Assembly (NCBI GenBank): GCA_949292725.1
Contig: CASFAQ010000004.1
Location: 1 to 44,767 of the forward strand
Source: an uncultured Eubacteriales bacterium
GTDB taxonomy: Bacteria > Bacillota > Clostridia > Lachnospirales > Lachnospiraceae
Reading direction: 5' to 3'
Length of the DNA stretch: 44,767 nucleotides
A program made the translations under genes and the position numbers. The notes under the pieces are model-generated. The model ran no database searches. It was not told the origin of the DNA and saw nothing but the letters and a program-made list of their open reading frames with translations. Shown here piece by piece: positions 3,478-12,694 of the stretch. Position 1 is the first letter of the stretch. Every line of letters starts with the position of its first letter.

Positions 3478-4449
3478 ATGTGTACTGCTGCGGTATATAA
3501 GACTATGGATCACTATTTTGGGCGCACTCTTGACCATGATCGCTCATACGGCGAGGAAATCACGATAATTCCTCGAAACTATGTCATTCATTATAAATAT
3601 GAGGGTATTATCAATAACCATTTCGCGATAATCGGAATGGCCTGTGTTATGGATAACTATCCCCTGTATTATGACGCCGTCAATGAAGCCGGCCTTGCCA
3701 TGGCCGGACTTAATTTCACTGATAATGCAGTATATAATAATGCGGATAACAACAAATACAATATCGCTCCATTTGAATTCATACCCTGGATTCTGTGTCA
3801 GTGTTCTTCCATAGCAGAAGCAAAAGAACTTATCACAAGAACCAATATTATTGATATATCATTTAATAATCTTGCACAGGCCCGACTGCACTGGATCATT
3901 GCCGCGCATGGTGAAGCAATAACCATAGAGACCACCCAAAGCGGTATCTGTATTTATGATAATAAGATTGGCATCCTTACCAATAACCCTACTTTTGAGA
4001 TGCATCTTTTTAACCTGAATAACTATATGTCATTATCTCCTTATGAACCGCAGAACAGTTTCTGTAACGGGCTTTCATTGAATGCATACAGTCACGGCAT
4101 GGGCGCGCTTGGACTTCCGGGTGATTTCTCTTCCCAGTCACGCTTCATAAGGGCTGCTTTTGTAAAAGCAAACTCCGTATGCGGCGATACCGAGGAAGAG
4201 AGTGTAAACCAGTTCTTTCATATACTTGGTTCTGTCGAGCAGCCAAAAGGGTGCAATCGTCCTGAAGATGCTAATTATGAAATAACTCTCTATACATCCT
4301 GTTGCAATACGGACAAGGGAATATATTACTATACAACCTATGATAACCATCAGATATCATGTATAAATATGCATAAAGAAAACCTAAATACCGCCTCCCT
4401 TATAAAATATCCTCTAATAACACGCGAAAATATAATGTCACAGAACTGA
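3478..4449 (+). CDS. Choloylglycine hydrolase family protein (bile salt hydrolase / penicillin V acylase type)
   Basis: The 323-residue Ntn-hydrolase family protein begins MCTAAVY, so removing Met would expose the catalytic Cys2. Other family residues are visible: FGRTLDHD near 14-21 (Arg and Asp of the active site), GILTNNPTF near 165-173 (catalytic Asn) and GLPGDFSSQSRFIRAAF near 212-228 (Arg). There is no signal peptide, so it acts in the cytoplasm. Substrates in the family include conjugated bile acids, penicillin V and N-acyl homoserine lactones. Bile salts are the natural guess for a gut Clostridium, but the subtype cannot be decided here. Start: AGGAGG lies seven bases before the ATG. 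It stands alone on the plus strand and converges on the pilus operon. Confidence 0.87.
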   Translation: MCTAAVYKTMDHYFGRTLDHDRSYGEEITIIPRNYVIHYKYEGIINNHFAIIGMACVMDNYPLYYDAVNEAGLAMAGLNFTDNAVYNNADNNKYNIAPFEFIPWILCQCSSIAEAKELITRTNIIDISFNNLAQARLHWIIAAHGEAITIETTQSGICIYDNKIGILTNNPTFEMHLFNLNNYMSLSPYEPQNSFCNGLSLNAYSHGMGALGLPGDFSSQSRFIRAAFVKANSVCGDTEEESVNQFFHILGSVEQPKGCNRPEDANYEITLYTSCCNTDKGIYYYTTYDNHQISCINMHKENLNTASLIKYPLITRENIMSQN

Positions 4450-4463
4450 TACGATTCCATGTA

Positions 4464-5093
4464 TTATTTCACATAAAATACGAAAAATAGTATGCCCACC
4501 ATATAGATGCTTGGAACGAAGGGCTTTCGCATTCTTAACGAAAGGCTCCCGGGTTTTATGCATCCTATATATCTTATTATAAAAAGAAGACCCGAAACCG
4601 ATATATACAGCATATTGACAACGATACTGTTCATAATAATATGAACAGTATCCGCACTGCTGTTATATAATGCTACTTTTGACGACAGAAAAACGGATGT
4701 GAATATCAGGACATCACTATCTCCTTCTCCGAACCATCCTGCCTTAGAGCACAGCTTTAGTAATACCGCCATTATACATACCGAAACCATAAGCGCTGTA
4801 GTATATTCACTGCCTTGCTGTGTACACATAAGACAGATAAGGCACAAAATCGCCGGGCCAATAACGGCATATTCCATTTTCACATACACATATCCCGTAT
4901 AATAATCCACATAGGCAATCACCATAAGCCACATAAGATAAAGGATGTATAACGCTCTTGCGTATTCTGAGGAAAGTACTGCCAAAATAAATACAACCAG
5001 TTTAACAGCCGAAAAAATATACAGCCATTTTACCATGTCGTCTCTGTCAACCTTCTTTTTTGCCTCCGAAATATTATATAACAGACCTGTCAT
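4464..5093 (-). CDS. Prepilin peptidase, A24/CpaA-TadV type
   Basis: The 209-residue polytopic membrane protein should be the aspartyl protease that removes the leader of Flp-type prepilins. The two catalytic Asp motifs are present: AYVDYYTGYV near residue 62 (D-x-x-T-x-x-V type) and GWFGEGDSDV near 120 (GxGD). About six hydrophobic segments surround them. There is no N-terminal cysteine-rich methyltransferase domain, as expected for TadV/CpaA. It is the last gene of the pilus operon. Its ATG overlaps the TGA of the Ig-repeat protein (ATGA, 5090-5093), implying translational coupling, and AAGGAG precedes it. Confidence 0.85.
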   Translation of the reverse strand: MTGLLYNISEAKKKVDRDDMVKWLYIFSAVKLVVFILAVLSSEYARALYILYLMWLMVIAYVDYYTGYVYVKMEYAVIGPAILCLICLMCTQQGSEYTTALMVSVCIMAVLLKLCSKAGWFGEGDSDVLIFTSVFLSSKVALYNSSADTVHIIMNSIVVNMLYISVSGLLFIIRYIGCIKPGSLSLRMRKPFVPSIYMVGILFFVFYVK

Positions 5094-8000
5094 GAACTTC
5101 TCCTTAATCTTGTACGAAACTGCTCAGTTATACTTCCGTAAACCTCAAATGCAGGATATACCGTGTACTCCTGTTCACCCTTATATGCCTTTACAGTCAC
5201 ATGATATGGTCCCTCAGCTGTTCCTATCGGTATGACAAATCCTGTGCTGAACTGCAAAGACTTCCTCCCTGACACATCAAATTCTCTGTATAACGATGGA
5301 TCAACGGAGGACATATTTTCAGGAAAAAATGCTCTTATAACATCTGCATCCCCACTGTAACGTATCCTTAGGATTCCACGCTCTCCCGCACGAAATACCG
5401 CCTCACTCCTGCCATCGATACGAATTATATCCGCATTGAGCAATATATCGTTCTTATCGGTTGCTAGAGCATAATCCGAAACATTACCGGCATAATCCGT
5501 CATCTTAATATATATAACCGGAGAATGTCCTCTGTATTCCGACTGATCCACATATATTGTACATTTCTTGCTGTTTACATTATAGTACGAATCAACAAGC
5601 GAACCATCCCTGTATACTTCTATCGAATATACGCCTGAATCATCATCACTGATACACACATTACCCTTAAGCTCTGCCTTATTCCAGCCATCGTCACATG
5701 TAATATCAGCATATGGCACATCAAAATCCAGATTTAGATACAGATCAGAATTTCTCACATTTCCTGCTGCATCACTTAACTGAAATATATAATGTCTATG
5801 CGAGCTTTCAAGCGTATCAATAAAAGCGTCGGTAAAATTAAGAATTCCATTATTTGAGTCCGAACATTTCATAGTAAGCGGGATATCAAAATCAACCTCT
5901 CTTTTCACTCCATTTTTCACCTCATACAAACGTATTTTTGATATGTCGTTAAGTCCGCTTAATTCATCACAGGCATAGATATTACCATGCATTGCCTCCT
6001 TACCTATCCATTTATTATTAGGTATATTAAGACCTGTGAATGCATCTGCACAGATTATGGAAGGCGGTGTCCTGTCAAGTCTGTAGAACCTGACTATATA
6101 AGAATGGTTACCCGCAACATCATCTGCTCCGATACTGATAATGTTAACACCCTCATCATCTATAACATATTTTCCGTCAATTGTTGCCGTTACGGAGTTA
6201 TAGGATGTTACACCCGATATCTCCTCTCTGTTAACCTTTACTCCCACAGCATATATACCGCTGTAATTATCCTTTGCGGCAATCCCAAGGTTCAGATTGT
6301 TCCGATACCATTTACTATCATTAAATGAAGTATTAACCTTAATTACGGGTTTGGTCGTATCCTTCTTAAGCCCGAGATAGACCGGTTCCGACGCCACATA
6401 CATTCCTCCTGAGATAACATCTATTCCATAATAACCATCGGGCATATCCTTTATAATCTCCATGGGGTTAAGCGAGTACCTGTAATTATAGAGGCCGTGT
6501 GGGAGGGTACGGCTCATCACATCCTTTAGTGCAAATACAATTCTCTGGTTTGAAGGATTAGCGTTATCCTCGGACATGATTACAAGTGATGCAATCTCAG
6601 AATTACCTCCGTACACATCGGTCGTAATATCAGAAGCATTAAAACCGTTATGGTCACCCGTAATAACGGAATTCACTATATGCGCTGTCGGAATAAGAAA
6701 TGTCAGTTTACCAGAATGACTTACATTTCCGACATTATCTGTTGCTCTAATATAATAATCATATCCTTTTTCCGGTTTTATATAAAAATCCTTCTCCGAC
6801 CTTATCATAGTATTTCTTCCGGTGTAGTTAAGCTCAGAGATTATTACTCCGTCACTCCTGTATACGGCAACACTCTTTACTCCCGAACCATTATCATACA
6901 CTGATACCGGAACATAGGACGCTCCAACTGATGATATGTATTCAGGAATATACACATCAGGTCCTTTCCCGTCCGATACCATGCTTATCATACCGTCATC
7001 CCTGCTTTTATCGCACATATAATCGGTATCGCCAAGCGCCTCGGGATAAGTATAATTATAATAAACCCTACCCTCGGGCTTAATATATATAATATTGCCA
7101 TCCGGTACATTAAACCTGTACATCGCCATACTCGTGAATGCATAATTACAGTCGCTGTAAGTGCTTGTCAGATTATAATCCGTTCCTCTTAATATAAGCG
7201 GCTTATCAGATGTCGTGCCATCTTTTATAATTCCCGAATATGCAAGACTGCTGCCACCACCTTTCTGCGCTGTATAATATTTCTGGTCATCTCCCCAACC
7301 GGTAACCCCATATATATTATAGTTTGGATGAAAAGCCCTGTTGGCGGCATCCATATCATTAAAATAAGACTCAAAAGCAATATTGACATCCGCGCCTCTC
7401 TTTACATAATACACTCCATCCGCAGAATACACATTAACGCCTGTCGCATAAATATTTCTGGTTGCAATATAGTTATTCGTCGGGAACATGATGCTTTTCT
7501 TAAAAAAACTGTCAAGATCTTCCGGTCTCTTCCACTTGCGCGCCGCTTTTATGCCCGCAGCCGTTCTGAAAAGATAACTGTTGTTGGCTGCCGATATTGT
7601 CCTTCCATCATTTGATTCCTTTATTTTTCCACACAGCTGCACGTCATCCTCCACAACCGTCATTATAGCATCAAACGTATATATATTTTTATTTCTGTAT
7701 ATTTCATTCCATGTTATACTGCTGTTTCCATTAAATAATGTAAGCAGCTTACTTAGCTTTGCCCTTCTTAATACATATGTATACGACCCCTTCTTCACCT
7801 CGGATACTTCCTTTACATATGTTCCTCCAAGCATAACCTCTATTCTGTCAGTCTTACCTCCGACGTTAATGGTAATCGTATATCCTACGGTTCTGTATCT
7901 TGTGGAGTTGGACGCCGTAAGACCACGCGAACAAAAATATATATATCCGTCAGCCTCTCTGTATCTTGCGGGGCTGTCCTGCTCATCACCGTATTTGTTA

Positions 8001-8101
8001 TAGTATGAGTACGCATTGTCAAATGTTCCTGCCTGTATATTTGGGGAAGTTCCAAATACCACAAACATCAGAATACATATAATTAATATCCTTTTACCCA
8101 T
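5090..8101 (-). CDS. Large secreted protein with Ig-like repeats, in the Tad pilus operon
   Basis: The protein has about 1003 residues. A basic N-terminus and hydrophobic stretch (ILIICILMFVVFGT) ending in a likely cleavage after NIQA form a signal peptide. Roughly residues 25-380 form a region I do not recognise with certainty. Four Ig-like repeats follow at about 380-470, 584-678, 679-795 and 796-885. Each has a D-x-SG(V/I/L) element in the middle and a D-x-x-GN-(V/H)-(S/R) element near its end (DNVGNVS, DDVAGNHS, SDAAGNVR, TDYAGNVS). The second to fourth open with a variant of D-x-(T/V)-x-P. A last domain (890-1003) has no membrane anchor or LPxTG. ATG 8101 lies five bases after AAAGGAG; an upstream GTG at 8107 is too close. 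It is probably a pilus-associated surface or tip protein, by context only. Confidence 0.75.
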   Translation of the reverse strand: MGKRILIICILMFVVFGTSPNIQAGTFDNAYSYYNKYGDEQDSPARYREADGYIYFCSRGLTASNSTRYRTVGYTITINVGGKTDRIEVMLGGTYVKEVSEVKKGSYTYVLRRAKLSKLLTLFNGNSSITWNEIYRNKNIYTFDAIMTVVEDDVQLCGKIKESNDGRTISAANNSYLFRTAAGIKAARKWKRPEDLDSFFKKSIMFPTNNYIATRNIYATGVNVYSADGVYYVKRGADVNIAFESYFNDMDAANRAFHPNYNIYGVTGWGDDQKYYTAQKGGGSSLAYSGIIKDGTTSDKPLILRGTDYNLTSTYSDCNYAFTSMAMYRFNVPDGNIIYIKPEGRVYYNYTYPEALGDTDYMCDKSRDDGMISMVSDGKGPDVYIPEYISSVGASYVPVSVYDNGSGVKSVAVYRSDGVIISELNYTGRNTMIRSEKDFYIKPEKGYDYYIRATDNVGNVSHSGKLTFLIPTAHIVNSVITGDHNGFNASDITTDVYGGNSEIASLVIMSEDNANPSNQRIVFALKDVMSRTLPHGLYNYRYSLNPMEIIKDMPDGYYGIDVISGGMYVASEPVYLGLKKDTTKPVIKVNTSFNDSKWYRNNLNLGIAAKDNYSGIYAVGVKVNREEISGVTSYNSVTATIDGKYVIDDEGVNIISIGADDVAGNHSYIVRFYRLDRTPPSIICADAFTGLNIPNNKWIGKEAMHGNIYACDELSGLNDISKIRLYEVKNGVKREVDFDIPLTMKCSDSNNGILNFTDAFIDTLESSHRHYIFQLSDAAGNVRNSDLYLNLDFDVPYADITCDDGWNKAELKGNVCISDDDSGVYSIEVYRDGSLVDSYYNVNSKKCTIYVDQSEYRGHSPVIYIKMTDYAGNVSDYALATDKNDILLNADIIRIDGRSEAVFRAGERGILRIRYSGDADVIRAFFPENMSSVDPSLYREFDVSGRKSLQFSTGFVIPIGTAEGPYHVTVKAYKGEQEYTVYPAFEVYGSITEQFRTRLRRSS

Positions 8102-8726
8102 TTTCACTCCTTTCCAACCTGCATATCCTTATAGTTCCCAGAGAAAGCATCGAATTAAGATAACTTTCACTTTCTTTTTCTATAAGAATATTAAGAAGCA
8201 TTGCGCATCCTTTTCCGTCCTCTATCTCTGTTCCATCAGAGTTATATGCCCCCGCTACGTATACCGAATTCATAACATTAATGCACTCTCCCGTATTATT
8301 GTCTATAACGGAAATATCTATATAATCTCCTTTTCTTATAATTCCCCCCACAAACTGGGATATGTCGGTAGCCCTTATTCCGGCCACTACCGGATTATTC
8401 AACATCACGCCTATACTGTCTGCATCCGCAAGCATTCCCTCCGCAAGCACAGTGCCGGAAGATACATTATATTTAAACGCCTTACCCATGATGCTCTCCC
8501 TGTCCTTCACTGCATCCGACGGAATTATCAGATTGCCGGAGCCTTCAGGTTCAAATAAATCATCAATATTGTCTTCTGTTATTATGGTGCCTTTATTTAT
8601 TCCTGACACACAGGTCATAACGCTGTCATTATCCCCCTTAAAGACATATACAATAACAAATACAGATACAGCCATACCCACAATGGCAACAAGTATCCAT
8701 TTGGCATTACCCTTTTTTCTTTTCAT
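8094..8726 (-). CDS. SAF-domain pilus assembly protein (CpaB/RcpC-like)
   Basis: The 210-residue protein has one N-terminal membrane helix (WILVAIVGMAVSVFVIVYVF, about 11-30), then an extracytoplasmic part. That part matches the SAF fold of CpaB/RcpC: GINKGTIITEDNIDDLF near 43-59, followed by SSGTVLAEGML and VAGIRATDISQFVGGIIRKGDYIDI. CpaB proteins act at the cell envelope in Flp pilus assembly. It follows the 181-residue pseudopilin by 15 bases and overlaps the next gene's ATG by 8 bases. A GGTGG element precedes the ATG. Low overall identity to characterised CpaB is expected in Clostridia; the assignment rests on fold motifs and operon position. Confidence 0.75.
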   Translation of the reverse strand: MKRKKGNAKWILVAIVGMAVSVFVIVYVFKGDNDSVMTCVSGINKGTIITEDNIDDLFEPEGSGNLIIPSDAVKDRESIMGKAFKYNVSSGTVLAEGMLADADSIGVMLNNPVVAGIRATDISQFVGGIIRKGDYIDISVIDNNTGECINVMNSVYVAGAYNSDGTEIEDGKGCAMLLNILIEKESESYLNSMLSLGTIRICRLERSENG

Positions 8727-8741
8727 ATGCCACCTTACCTT

Positions 8742-9287
8742 TCAGTTATTAACAACATCCACTGAGGTTCTTACATGCACATAGCGTTCTATTCCAAATA
8801 ATGTCTTTACATTCATGCCTATATCGGCATATATGGTAGCCGACACTATGGGTGTACCATCCGGGGTTGTCTCGTCTCCGTCATATTTTTCACTTCTGTA
8901 TACGGGTTCCCCGGTTGTGTAACTACAGCTTGTAAGAGTGTCCTCAGCAATGTTGTAAACAATGTAATCATATACAACTACCCTGTCATATATACTTTTA
9001 CCGGACGGAGTATAATCATCATTAAGATTCATATTACTCCTGAGAGTATCTAAAAATACATCAAAACTCTTATTGCAATCGCTTATGTAAATGAACCTGC
9101 CCTTGGAATACTCATTAAGATCTATCAGCGCCGCCGAAAGACAGGCGCTGTCAATACTGTCTCGTGCAAGACTCTGATAATGTCTTATCTCCCTTGCAGA
9201 ATAAGAAAAGAGCATTACCATTCCGATGATCGTAATCATCATATATGCGCTAAGATATTCTATTCCTCCGGTTTTAATCCTCTTCAT
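8742..9287 (-). CDS. Pseudopilin-like Tad protein (TadE/TadF/TadG-like)
   Basis: The 181-residue protein starts with a short basic leader and a GG site (MKRIKTGG, then IEYLSAY), followed by a hydrophobic helix (AYMMITIIGMVMLFSY). The remaining 150 residues are predicted to be extracytoplasmic. This is the architecture of TadE/TadF minor pilins: a short leader, one helix and a globular domain. The globular part contains only scattered cysteines (DSACLS, SDCNKS, TSCSYTTG) and no motif I can name. AGGAGG lies four bases before ATG 9287. It lies between the other pseudopilin and the SAF protein, so a minor pilin or pilus-assembly role is inferred. Confidence 0.65.
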   Translation of the reverse strand: MKRIKTGGIEYLSAYMMITIIGMVMLFSYSAREIRHYQSLARDSIDSACLSAALIDLNEYSKGRFIYISDCNKSFDVFLDTLRSNMNLNDDYTPSGKSIYDRVVVYDYIVYNIAEDTLTSCSYTTGEPVYRSEKYDGDETTPDGTPIVSATIYADIGMNVKTLFGIERYVHVRTSVDVVNN

Positions 9288-9295
9288 AAGTCCTC

Positions 9296-9706
9296 CTAAT
9301 TCTTTGACGTAGTCTTCTTCTCAATAAATGTATCCTTATATACGATCTGCGTGCCGGTATCAAACATATCAAGCACCGATATTGTCTCTACCGGAAGCCT
9401 CATACTTATACAAAGCTTTATGGTTGTTCCGTATTCACATCTTCCCATGGTAGTTCCCGAGAGATTGATTCTGTCGCCGCCTATGCCCATAAGGTCGTTT
9501 ACAAGCTCATTGCCGGCTTCCGTCGTAAGATATCCGTCTGCCTCCATTCTGAGCATGTACTGTCTGGCTATCTGTTCCGCCCTCTCAAGCGTCTCTACGG
9601 AATTCATATATGTTATATACATCACAGAAAGCAGCGAAGTTGCAAACATACCAATAAATATCGGAAGCATTCTGGCAATTCCGCCCTGCTTTTTTACGCT
9701 TTTCAT
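9296..9706 (-). CDS. TadE-like pseudopilin
   Basis: The protein has about 136 residues. The leader SVKKQGG is followed by the hydrophobic helix MLPIFIGMFATSLLSVMYITYM and an extracytoplasmic domain. That domain has the TadE-like feel of a short helix (ETLERAEQIARQYMLRMEADG) and a beta-rich end. A basic tail (EKKTTSKN) ends it. GGAGG is followed after ten bases by ATG 9706; an in-frame GTG at 9712 is only four bases away and less likely. It sits between the flp pilin and the second pseudopilin, 8 bases from the latter. It probably supplies a minor pilus subunit. Confidence 0.65.
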   Translation of the reverse strand: MKSVKKQGGIARMLPIFIGMFATSLLSVMYITYMNSVETLERAEQIARQYMLRMEADGYLTTEAGNELVNDLMGIGGDRINLSGTTMGRCEYGTTIKLCISMRLPVETISVLDMFDTGTQIVYKDTFIEKKTTSKN

Positions 9707-9735
9707 ATACACTGCACCTCCGTCCGTTACTTCAT

Positions 9736-9954
9736 TTATAAACTGGTAAATAATGCGTTTATTTTATCGGAAAATGAACTTCCGACAGTGCTTATAACTG
9801 TCTCTAACTGATCCCTGAATACGACAGCCAGCACCACGGCTATCGCTCCTAACGCAAACTCCATTATGATCTCTTTACCGCCATGTTTTCTTACTTCATA
9901 ATTTCCATTGTTTTCTTTCCTGTTAACAAAATAATTTTTAACTCTTTTAATCAT
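9736..9954 (-). CDS. Flp-type pilin
   Basis: The small 72-residue protein has the layout of a major Flp pilin. A charged leader of about 26 residues ends in HGG, a hydrophobic helix (FALGAIAVVLAVVF) follows, and a short polar tail (SDKINALFTSL) ends it. The processing region reads GGKEIIMEF. The Glu-Phe pair is therefore at +6/+7 after the GG, not the +5/+6 of the classical G/xxxxEF(Y) site. I start it at ATG 9954, nine bases after GGAAAGG. In-frame ATGs at 9963, 9972 and 9987 would lengthen the leader. It directly follows tadC and is the natural substrate of the peptidase at 4464-5093. Confidence 0.7.
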   Translation of the reverse strand: MIKRVKNYFVNRKENNGNYEVRKHGGKEIIMEFALGAIAVVLAVVFRDQLETVISTVGSSFSDKINALFTSL

Positions 9955-9979
9955 AGTTTTCATCCTTTCCATTATGTAA

Positions 9980-10648
9980 TTAATCATTTAACATTCGTGC
10001 AATCTCCGTACCCATGGAGTATATGCCTATGGCTATTACCCCTATGAATATGAGAAGCTCCACAACCTCGATTCTTCTTTCGAGTCTCGCCTTTTCCTTT
10101 AGCGAATGGGCATGTCTGACCTGCCGTATCTGCTCGCTCATATCAGAGAGTATCTGTACCGTTTTACCACTTGTCTGCGACTGGTTAAGAACTATACACA
10201 ATACGTCTATATGCCTGTTAGAGAATTTGTTGTTAAATTCGCTTACGGCTTCCTCCATTGTGCATTTGGTACTTATCTTATTACACAGTTCCATAAGTGC
10301 GGACTTAAGCCTCTTATTCGCCGTCATCATATAGCAGTCCATAAGTGAATCCTGTACAAATATACCTGCTCTGGCCTGAATCCTCAGAATGTCATATATA
10401 CTCTCTATATCGGACATCATGGCTTCATTGTCCGAGTTATTGGATATTACGATAATGAGTATCGGAGCAAACGCCCCTGAAACCATCGCCATTATGCATA
10501 TGTACATATTGATCATATATCCTATAGCGCCGCATATAATTCCCGAAAGCAGCATGGCAAAAAGGAATCTATAAGGCGTTATACCGGGAAACATGTACTC
10601 CGCTCCGTATTTTCTTAAAAAAACAACTATTTTGTCCTTAACTTTCAT
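9980..10648 (-). CDS. tadC: TadC-like type II/IV secretion inner-membrane platform protein
   Basis: The 222-residue protein has two N-terminal membrane helices (about 26-65), a cytoplasmic four-helix T2SSF domain and a C-terminal helix (LLIFIGVIAIGIYSMG). The T2SSF domain runs through DIESIYDILRIQARAG, LMELCNKISTKCTMEEAV and VLNQSQTSGKTVQILSDM. With TadB it forms the membrane platform on which the ATPase assembles the pilus. Its ATG at 10648 overlaps the tadB stop codon (TGATG), with AAAGGGG just upstream, so the two are translationally coupled. Length is somewhat shorter than proteobacterial TadC. Confidence 0.8.
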   Translation of the reverse strand: MKVKDKIVVFLRKYGAEYMFPGITPYRFLFAMLLSGIICGAIGYMINMYICIMAMVSGAFAPILIIVISNNSDNEAMMSDIESIYDILRIQARAGIFVQDSLMDCYMMTANKRLKSALMELCNKISTKCTMEEAVSEFNNKFSNRHIDVLCIVLNQSQTSGKTVQILSDMSEQIRQVRHAHSLKEKARLERRIEVVELLIFIGVIAIGIYSMGTEIARMLND

Positions 10649-11526
10649 CAACCCCTTTTATCAAAGAAAACCATTATTGCCATACATATTACGAGTATTA
10701 TGAAGCAATAAAAAAGAATAACATTGCCTATAAATGTGTTCATAAGAACACCCCACATACCGGAGGTAATCTTAGAAAACAGATAAACTATTCCAATTGC
10801 GCTTATAATAAGAATCACTATTTCCGCACGGCCGTTATTAATTATCGCCTTCCTGTCGGCCTTAATCGCAAGATAATCTGTCATGCTTAGCCTACAGTCC
10901 TTTATGACCATGTCATAATTGGCTTCATACTTAGAACACACCTGAATATTGCGGAGAAGCTCCCTGCATTTTGCATGCTCCATCCTTGCGGAAAGATTAT
11001 TAAACGCCGTCGTGGTATCTCCCAGACTTTCAGCCTCATTACAGAATTCCAAAAGCATTCCTTTTAACGGTTCATCAAGATAGATTATCGCCTTCTTAAA
11101 TATCTGGACTATATCGTCGTCCGTCTTACTGAAATTCTCAATCAGATTAAGAAAGGTCATGATATTGTCATTGAGACGGCTGTAATATATTCCGGAAAGT
11201 ATGTACAGAATAATGCCTGAAAGCAAAACTATGGAAACACCCATCGAAAACGCCATAATAAAGCTGTTAAATGCAATCATAACGACTACTCCGGCAAAAA
11301 CCGATAACACCGATATAAAACCTATATAAAGCTCTGCATTGATACTGCCTGCAATGTTTCGTATCCCACTATGATCAAGCATACGGTCAATTCTGTATAA
11401 AAACGACTTTCTGCCATGATTACCGCTTAGCTGCCTTTTCCGGTATTCTTCGATAAGCCTTCTTTTATATCTTCGGTCAATCCAGCCGATAAATATGCCC
11501 GTGTCCTCATCAGAAAATTCTTTCAT
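10648..11526 (-). CDS. tadB: TadB-like type II/IV secretion inner-membrane platform protein
   Basis: The 292-residue protein has two hydrophobic segments around residues 60-115 and a cytoplasmic T2SSF domain (TFLNLIENFSKTDDDIVQIFK, DCRLSMTDYLAIKADR). Two C-terminal helices are visible (VILIISAIGIVYLF, VILFYCFIILVICMAIMVFF). It should pair with TadC as the pilus platform. ATG 11526 is chosen because GGTGAG lies six bases upstream; a GTG at 11541 lies inside that site. It overlaps the end of tadA by 17 bases, which argues for tight co-expression. Confidence 0.8.
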   Translation of the reverse strand: MKEFSDEDTGIFIGWIDRRYKRRLIEEYRKRQLSGNHGRKSFLYRIDRMLDHSGIRNIAGSINAELYIGFISVLSVFAGVVVMIAFNSFIMAFSMGVSIVLLSGIILYILSGIYYSRLNDNIMTFLNLIENFSKTDDDIVQIFKKAIIYLDEPLKGMLLEFCNEAESLGDTTTAFNNLSARMEHAKCRELLRNIQVCSKYEANYDMVIKDCRLSMTDYLAIKADRKAIINNGRAEIVILIISAIGIVYLFSKITSGMWGVLMNTFIGNVILFYCFIILVICMAIMVFFDKRG

Positions 11527-12694
11527 ATATAAGCTCACCACCTTTGTATTCTCTTACCTCAGATATCTCTCTGACACAAAAATCTTTCATGTATACTATT
11601 GTCTTCATACCCATAAGCATCTTTCTTATATCATTCAATGAATAGTCACTCTCGTACTTTACATAATCCGCAAGCTTGTCTATAGCCTCACTGCTGCTCA
11701 TGGCATGCAGCGATGCCCAGCACTTGTGCCCCGTATAGCCGGCATTAAGCAGATACAGAGCTTCTCCGCCCTTTATCTCACCTATGATAAAATAATCAAG
11801 ATCCGTAAGCAATCCATTGCGGCTTAAATCCTTCAGGTCATACTTTATCTTGCCCTCTCCATGCGCCGACACAATATGCTGAAACATCAGATCCGGATGA
11901 ATATTACTGAACAGTTCCTCATTCTCCTGTATAACCAGACCGCTTCTGTCATGTGGTATATGCTCAAGCAGTGCATTCATAAGCGTCGTCTTTCCGCTGG
12001 CGCCCTTTCCCGCAAACAATATACCGCTTGATTCTTTAGCCGCATACCGAAGATATTCCGCCTTATCCTCATCAAGCATTCCAAGTTCCGTAAGTTCACT
12101 AAGCGTATGCTTCTTCTTTGGAATCTTTCGTATATGCATATATGGAGCATTGGTAGAATTGACAAATTCCGTAGATATATTGAATCTCAGAATAAAGTCC
12201 TTATTGCTTTCTTTATCGGTAAACGACTGTATTGCGTTAACGTCTGCCAGATTAGTCTTATTCTTAACCGCCGCCATGGACACGAATCTTTTGTAATCGG
12301 CATTACTCGGAAATCTGATATCGCATCCCATCCTCTTTCCTTTTCTCTTAACCCTTACATTATCAGCACTAAGAACCTTTATATCGGATACATCCGGGTC
12401 GCTGATAACCTCTTCCAATATGTAATAACCCCATATAAATTTGCTTAAATGCTTAATAATAGTAATTCTGTCCTCCGCAGCAAGTTCCTTATCCGCCAGG
12501 TATCTGTCTGCCGCATCAAGCAGGACCTTTCTCGGCTTTATTCCGCGTTGTACAAGCAAAAGCGTCTGCCTCTCAACATGGATAAAATAATGCAGAAGCT
12601 CGTCAAGTACATTATCAATTTCAATCTGTTTCAACATTAAAAATACATCACTCCCAATTCCATATTGCAGATAATCCTCCTTCTGCCAGATCAT
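11510..12694 (-). CDS. tadA: TadA/CpaF-family pilus assembly ATPase
   Basis: The 394-residue protein is a VirB11/PilT-like secretion ATPase that powers Flp pilus assembly at the cytoplasmic face of the membrane. A helical N-terminal domain is followed by EEVISDPDVSDIKVLSADNV (about 94-113), typical of CpaF. Next come the Walker A FAGKGASGKTT (about 227-237), the Asp-box/Walker B stretch LDYFIIGEIKGGEAL (about 299-313) and the His-box-like CWASLHAMSS (about 325-334). It is the first gene of the operon. The start is uncertain. ATG 12694 has no ribosome binding site, whereas an internal AAGGAGG lies downstream of it and an in-frame ATG at 12637 would give 375 residues. Confidence 0.87.
   Translation of the reverse strand: MIWQKEDYLQYGIGSDVFLMLKQIEIDNVLDELLHYFIHVERQTLLLVQRGIKPRKVLLDAADRYLADKELAAEDRITIIKHLSKFIWGYYILEEVISDPDVSDIKVLSADNVRVKRKGKRMGCDIRFPSNADYKRFVSMAAVKNKTNLADVNAIQSFTDKESNKDFILRFNISTEFVNSTNAPYMHIRKIPKKKHTLSELTELGMLDEDKAEYLRYAAKESSGILFAGKGASGKTTLMNALLEHIPHDRSGLVIQENEELFSNIHPDLMFQHIVSAHGEGKIKYDLKDLSRNGLLTDLDYFIIGEIKGGEALYLLNAGYTGHKCWASLHAMSSSEAIDKLADYVKYESDYSLNDIRKMLMGMKTIVYMKDFCVREISEVREYKGGELIYERIF

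Follow-up and report, generated by a model that had tools for sequence, protein, structure and literature searches.

The 44,767-nucleotide stretch analysed here (the window; contig CASFAQ010000004.1, called C4) comes from a 1.75 Mb metagenome-assembled genome (MAG) of an uncultured member of the Lachnospiraceae, and carries on its minus strand, from 12694 to 4464, a compact operon for a Tad/Flp-type pilus in the order tadA-tadB-tadC-flp-TadE-TadG-SAF/CpaB-like-Ig protein-prepilin peptidase. The subject of this report is the large secreted protein of immunoglobulin (Ig)-like domains encoded next to the peptidase, and in particular the last few residues of that protein. The open reading frames (ORFs), their order and their strand are as the initial annotation gave them, according to the ORF listing, and that annotation had further proposed that the large protein may be held by the pilus itself. 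The features of the operon are the following.

11510 to 12694, minus strand: TadA/CpaF-type assembly ATPase (PF00437, 82 bits; conserved subfamily alignment A1)
10648 to 11541, minus strand: TadB-like membrane platform protein (from position and family conservation; no Pfam match above cut-off)
9980 to 10651, minus strand: TadC-like membrane platform protein (T2SSF 24.6 bits, cut-off 25.2)
9736 to 9987, minus strand: Flp-like major pilin (GG leader, then a hydrophobic segment; Flp1_like 19.3 bits, cut-off 33.5; conserved in the genus)
9296 to 9712, minus strand: TadE-like pseudopilin (C-terminus TTSKN; family consensus STAK[NYHQ])
8742 to 9287, minus strand: TadG-like pseudopilin of 181 residues (no Pfam match, no vWA domain found)
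8757 to 8759, minus strand: codon of TadG Asp177, in the end SVDVVNN (of 519 columns, the one that covaries best with the middle tail Arg)
8094 to 8726, minus strand: SAF/CpaB-like membrane-anchored protein (SAF 13.7 bits, cut-off 21; weak FlgA/CpaB matches)
5090 to 8101, minus strand: secreted Ig-chain protein of 1003 residues (start ATG 8101; mechanical ORF start GTG 8107)
8030 to 8101, minus strand: Sec signal peptide, residues 1-24 (by eye, from hydropathy and alignment)
6998 to 8029, minus strand: N-terminal module, residues 25-368 (a beta-rich domain, present also in proteins encoded elsewhere in the family, followed by an Ig-V-like domain)
5132 to 5452, minus strand: C-terminal beta-sandwich module, residues 884-990 (common to proteins in this slot; lost in four genus members)
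5102 to 5116, minus strand: putative docking box RTRLR at the C-terminus, residues 996-1000 (predicted to be disordered)
4464 to 5093, minus strand: TadV/A24-type prepilin peptidase (PF01478 18.4 bits, cut-off 26.5; motifs YVDYYTG and GEGD read by eye)

As their Pfam scores lie below the curated cut-offs, the names of most of the small operon proteins rest on gene order, weak profile matches and motifs, the last including catalytic Asp motifs in the A24 peptidase and GG-hydrophobic leaders in Flp, TadE and TadG, again by eye. TadA scores 97 bits against the TadA-family model, which is under the equivalog cut-off. The ATG of the Ig gene at 8101 precedes the stop of the cpaB-like gene (ORF end 8094), with the two genes overlapping by a few bases, and its stop overlaps the start of the peptidase gene as ATGA at 5090-5093; the coupled stop/start overlaps first described around the large protein are therefore real. 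No TadZ/CpaE gene was found within this operon, and passages of Imam et al. 2011 (PMC3244431) indicate that TadZ is not required in all Gram-positive tad loci. The absence of tadZ that had been noted holds for this locus and not for the genome, where contig C8 (L049) carries a second, more usual Tad locus with a peptidase, a TadZ-like protein (L049:5100-6056; 19.2 bits, below the cut-off of 27.4), TadA, a TadB/C fusion, DUF5702 and two pilin-like proteins. Two different Tad systems are kept in this 1.75 Mb genome.

The Ig protein opens with a hydrophobic segment (MGKRILIICILMFVVFGTSPNIQA), and a hydropathy and motif scan revealed no further hydrophobic stretch and no LPXTG anywhere in it, which agrees with its earlier description as a protein of about 1000 residues with a signal peptide and no wall anchor. 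AlphaFold2 predicts a rod of beta-sandwich domains, with a mean predicted local distance difference test score (pLDDT) of 79.6, in which residues 379-987 match Ig chains by fold comparison; the Ig-repeat nature ascribed to the protein is borne out by this model, despite OmpL47/Big_13 sequence matches that are sub-threshold. There is no vWA match in Pfam. The N-terminal module (25-368) is modelled with a pLDDT of 87; fold searches turned up nothing convincing for it (best Foldseek E 1e-4 with TM under 0.2; best Z 6.8, for the second half only), nor is there a PDB sequence match, and the C-terminal module is without a Pfam family, one weak NCBIfam match, 'invert_tail', being seen in one member. 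Beyond the folded last domain the tail has a pLDDT of 34 and is thus predicted to be disordered. The N-terminal module (residues 8-211) occurs also in proteins that lack the tail (L040:7577-9292, L041:9022-11061, L043:8847-10928), and in L040 and L043 a different TadA/TadBC-type locus lies close by.

All ten genomes of the genus that were examined contain the Ig gene, the genus-mates in the named collection being uncultured metagenome-derived Lachnospiraceae and one isolate, and in every genus locus unbroken by a contig end it is flanked by the SAF and peptidase genes. Downstream of the peptidase, gene content varies between the window and its relatives, and therefore the conserved unit is the operon, not the wider neighbourhood. 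In other Lachnospiraceae and in Clostridium the same slot is filled by a secreted protein of 480-1528 residues whose body can hardly be aligned; a search with the whole protein across the family found partial relatives only, the last 110-140 residues recurring at the equivalent position in other Tad operons and the first 200 in proteins elsewhere. A single-sequence scan of genome contigs with the Ig protein gave no matches, a TadA alignment search did. When 329 family genomes were searched with a profile built from the final 140 residues (A3), 12 gave a match, and 11 of these also carry the close TadA relative; with 14 TadA-positive genomes among those common to both searches this corresponds to a Fisher p of ~4e-17, a value that is a guide only since the samples are nested only approximately and the genomes are related. 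Three TadA-positive genomes are negative for A3: in G165 a tailed protein is present but its domain has diverged, and in the other two (G264 and G313) the search found no tailed protein. Four genomes with an empty Tad slot have the gene elsewhere: 10 kb off in G125, on a separate contig in G051 and G366, and truncated by a contig end in G322. Related operons do not routinely lack the gene, with a tailed protein occupying the slot in most related complete operons, and the conservation check proposed in the initial annotation therefore went in favour of its reading.

What these proteins share is their end. Nearly all slot proteins finish in [RK]TR[IL]R, seen as RTRIR, RTRLR or KTRIR, either terminal or a few residues short of the end, and in the operons fetched after the tail was first noted it is present in all nine complete slot proteins. 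The proteins of L071, L072 and L076 carry the tail (as RRRLR in L076) on bodies that are hardly related to that of the window protein, and in four members of the genus the C-terminal beta-sandwich has been lost with the tail retained directly after the preceding Ig domain. Among 1083 distinct ORFs of at least 200 residues drawn from Tad neighbourhoods the pattern [RK][TR]R[ILV][RN] occurs in the last 25 residues of 30, all in or near a Tad locus, and the strict form RTR[IL]R accounts for 25 C-termini and is absent from the interior of every protein across 428,686 residues, a background that is local and not genome-wide given where the ORFs were drawn from. None of the 30 tailed proteins has an LPXTG within its last 60 residues, and those of L121 and L141 lie outside the slot. 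A pattern search of the window's own genome identified the Ig gene as the sole ORF that ends with the tail; two other in-frame matches, C8:38733 and C27:4440, were rejected as they end no plausible ORF. The tail is encoded by 29 different codon spellings in 30 genes, and conservation is therefore at the protein level. No earlier report of the motif was found in the open-access literature searched.

In side lineages the tail lacks its middle Arg (Arg3), and it is this residue that suggests a link between the tail and the pilus. TadG ends in [VAT]D[IV] where its partner has RTR, and this end is absent in the few operons with a diverged partner tail, an association first seen in 33 rows (Fisher 1.2e-4). 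In a second genus, where the gene is present in 27 of 31 genomes, the tail is without the middle Arg; most of these genomes were fetched after the Asp had been noticed, and they followed the prediction. When all operons are pooled the TadG Asp is present in 29 of 30 with Arg3 and in 1 of 27 without it. Comparison of 519 alignment columns from TadG, TadE and CpaB of the same organisms placed the TadG Asp column as the best predictor of Arg3, with a phi of 0.93, followed by columns at 0.63 and 0.59; the column at 0.63 is the start Met of CpaB, an artefact of ORF starts, and the next CpaB column reaches 0.56. As kinship is a background shared by all columns, the margin by which the TadG column leads is informative. 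The C-terminal STAK motif of TadE was also considered as partner of the tail and was rejected, since it occurs both with and without tailed proteins. Most TadE-like pseudopilins of such operons, with a tailed partner or none, have a conserved C-terminus of the ST[AS]K[NYHQW] type.

A number of observations weigh against a specific pairing of the two residues. Arg3 changes only ~4 independent times on the TadG tree, and sign tests on independent pairs cannot reach significance for the Arg-Asp pairing. There are two clear exceptions (L121 and G973): Clostridium acidisoli has Arg3 and no TadG Asp, and G973 has the TadG Asp and no Arg3. Furthermore Glu often stands in place of Asp in the diverged genus (17 of the 27 operons without Arg3), and TadG of the Lachnospira/Butyrivibrio type retains a D-I-Y-C end, yet no tailed protein was found with it (G551).

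The tail Arg varies together with the TadG Asp, and the tail is therefore suggested to be the plug that fixes the surface protein to the pilus. The operon would then encode a minimal Tad pilus together with a dedicated client, a rod-like Ig-domain protein without a wall anchor that would be exported by Sec. After export its unstructured tail, usually within the last 5-10 residues, may dock onto TadG, with the middle Arg of the motif and the Asp near the C-terminus of the pseudopilin both taking part in the contact. This would attach the Ig protein to the filament, probably at its tip, where other type IV filaments have their pseudopilins, with its N-terminal modules facing outward as an adhesin or binding head. 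We regard the chances as evenly balanced that this is a pilus surface protein in two pieces, in which a C-terminal linear motif docks a secreted Ig chain on TadG. Much the same holds for the broader proposal that RTR[IL]R is a previously undescribed docking signal, that through it a surface protein, exchangeable and secreted on its own, is carried on TadG in the Tad pili of monoderms with the tail Arg and TadG Asp specifying the contact, and that the arrangement is a two-piece equivalent of the pilin-vWA tip adhesins. What the analysis itself showed is that the gene and its tail are conserved, and that the tail is confined to Tad-linked proteins among the sequences covered, persists where the domain before it has been lost, is predicted to be disordered and covaries with TadG. 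The idea that the protein is held by the pilus gains support from the tail, which had gone unnoticed, and from the covariation, leaving the original interpretation as a whole partly supported.

It would seem unlikely, though it is the strongest of the alternatives, that the partner of the tail is the SAF/CpaB-like protein or some other immobile component of the assembly machinery, the Ig protein being a static collar or alignment factor at the cell surface and not a component of the filament. The SAF protein is membrane-anchored and extracytoplasmic, and its gene adjoins and overlaps that of the Ig protein in the window; however, in Clostridium and in some Lachnospiraceae the Ig gene does not adjoin cpaB, and the CpaB columns track Arg3 poorly once the start Met is set aside, compared with TadG Asp177.

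Somewhat less probable still is that the tail serves, through its positive charge, as a non-specific anchor on the membrane or on anionic wall polymers, with co-regulation as the only link to the pilus. Charge-based binding to wall polymers is common among Gram-positive surface proteins, and the tail is short, Arg-rich and extracytoplasmic as such an anchor would be. What is kept, however, is the exact order RTR[IL]R and not mere charge, some lineages have tails with fewer Arg (DELMTVLR), no other user of the tail occurs among the sampled ORFs or in the window's own genome, and a single Arg tracks a single residue of TadG.

A slightly more doubtful possibility again is that extension and retraction of the pilus export or release the Ig protein as a substrate, with the tail as a transient secretion signal and the protein acting away from the pilus. 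There is precedent in TcpF and CofJ, which are operon-encoded, secreted and recognised by a minor pilin via a short terminal peptide (PMC9565799), but in a monoderm without an outer membrane pilus-driven export would be useful only for passing the wall, and the long modular rod with its variable body resembles a displayed surface protein. Finally, that the motif is a nucleotide-level by-product, the Shine-Dalgarno sequence of the next gene read as Arg codons, was rejected as close to negligible, for although purine-rich AGG/AGA account for most of the scored codon positions (56 of 90) and the Ig gene of the window runs into the start of the peptidase, spellings are as diverse as CGC ACC CGT ATT CGA and the tail is found also where the next gene is not a peptidase.

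Other features of these loci were observed along the way. In Clostridium (L141:2558-9457, L121:749-7777, L117 and L118) a related Tad operon directly follows genes for an FHA-FtsK (EssC-like) protein of ~1530 residues, a TadZ-like AAA protein and a DUF6382 protein, an arrangement that suggests a combined type VIIb secretion system (T7SSb)-like and Tad locus; in L141 the tailed protein lies upstream of the FHA-FtsK, TadZ-like and DUF6382 genes. L119, whose record bears the title Thermoflexaceae (Chloroflexota), carries a Tad locus placed inside the Lachnospiraceae type by the TadA tree and is possibly a MAG with a mislabelled taxonomy. Adjoining the pilus operon in the window is a plus-strand gene of the choloylglycine hydrolase family (3478-4449; PF02275, 341.8 bits), possibly a bile salt hydrolase.

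Little work has been done on the Tad pili of gut Firmicutes or on what they carry. If docking by the tail is correct, a short and portable C-terminal tag would allow the pilus-borne surface proteins of Lachnospiraceae to be listed from sequence, and the residue pair would provide a specific two-residue test of attachment. It would also carry over to monoderm Tad systems a principle seen in diderm type IVb pili (T4bP), in which a secreted protein plugs into a minor pilin.

Gram-positive tad operons as described in passages of Imam et al. 2011 (PMC3244431) have the same type of gene set, with Flp-like pilins and a TadV-type peptidase, and in those passages neither a secreted Ig partner nor a C-terminal motif is described. 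Like the LPXTG and MYXO-CTERM sorting tags, the tail is short, conserved, C-terminal and borne by secreted proteins that are otherwise unrelated; unlike them, it has no hydrophobic segment and no sortase or protease motif, is tied to one pilus locus and was found on a single protein in the window's own genome. PilB, the bimodular minor pilin of the Streptococcus sanguinis type IV pilus, likewise places an adhesive head on a monoderm type IV filament (PMC12607857), but that head is a vWA domain fused to the pilin and not a separate Ig protein. In the Tad pili of Caulobacter and Aggregatibacter CpaL/TadG is predicted to form a tip complex with minor pilins (PMC12607857), and there too a large extracellular domain is positioned at the filament through a pseudopilin; CpaL joins pilin module and vWA in one polypeptide, whereas here a bare TadG of 181 residues would be served by a separate large protein of Ig type. 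In TcpF-TcpB of Vibrio cholerae and CofJ-CofB of enterotoxigenic Escherichia coli a short N-terminal peptide of the secreted protein, the T4bP-SS, binds a trimeric minor pilin (PMC9565799), and with these systems the window shares an operon-encoded secreted protein and the proposed binding of a minor pilin by a short flexible terminal peptide. The family searches run showed no homology to TcpF or CofJ, and the signal of those proteins is N-terminal, aromatic-based and belongs to a diderm T4bP, whereas the one described here is C-terminal, Arg-based and belongs to a monoderm Tad pilus with an Ig-chain client. As the defining features of both fail, the terminus and chemistry of the peptide in the one and the fused vWA in the other, the window system is filed with neither TcpF/CofJ nor CpaL, though with its tail docked on TadG it would work like them.

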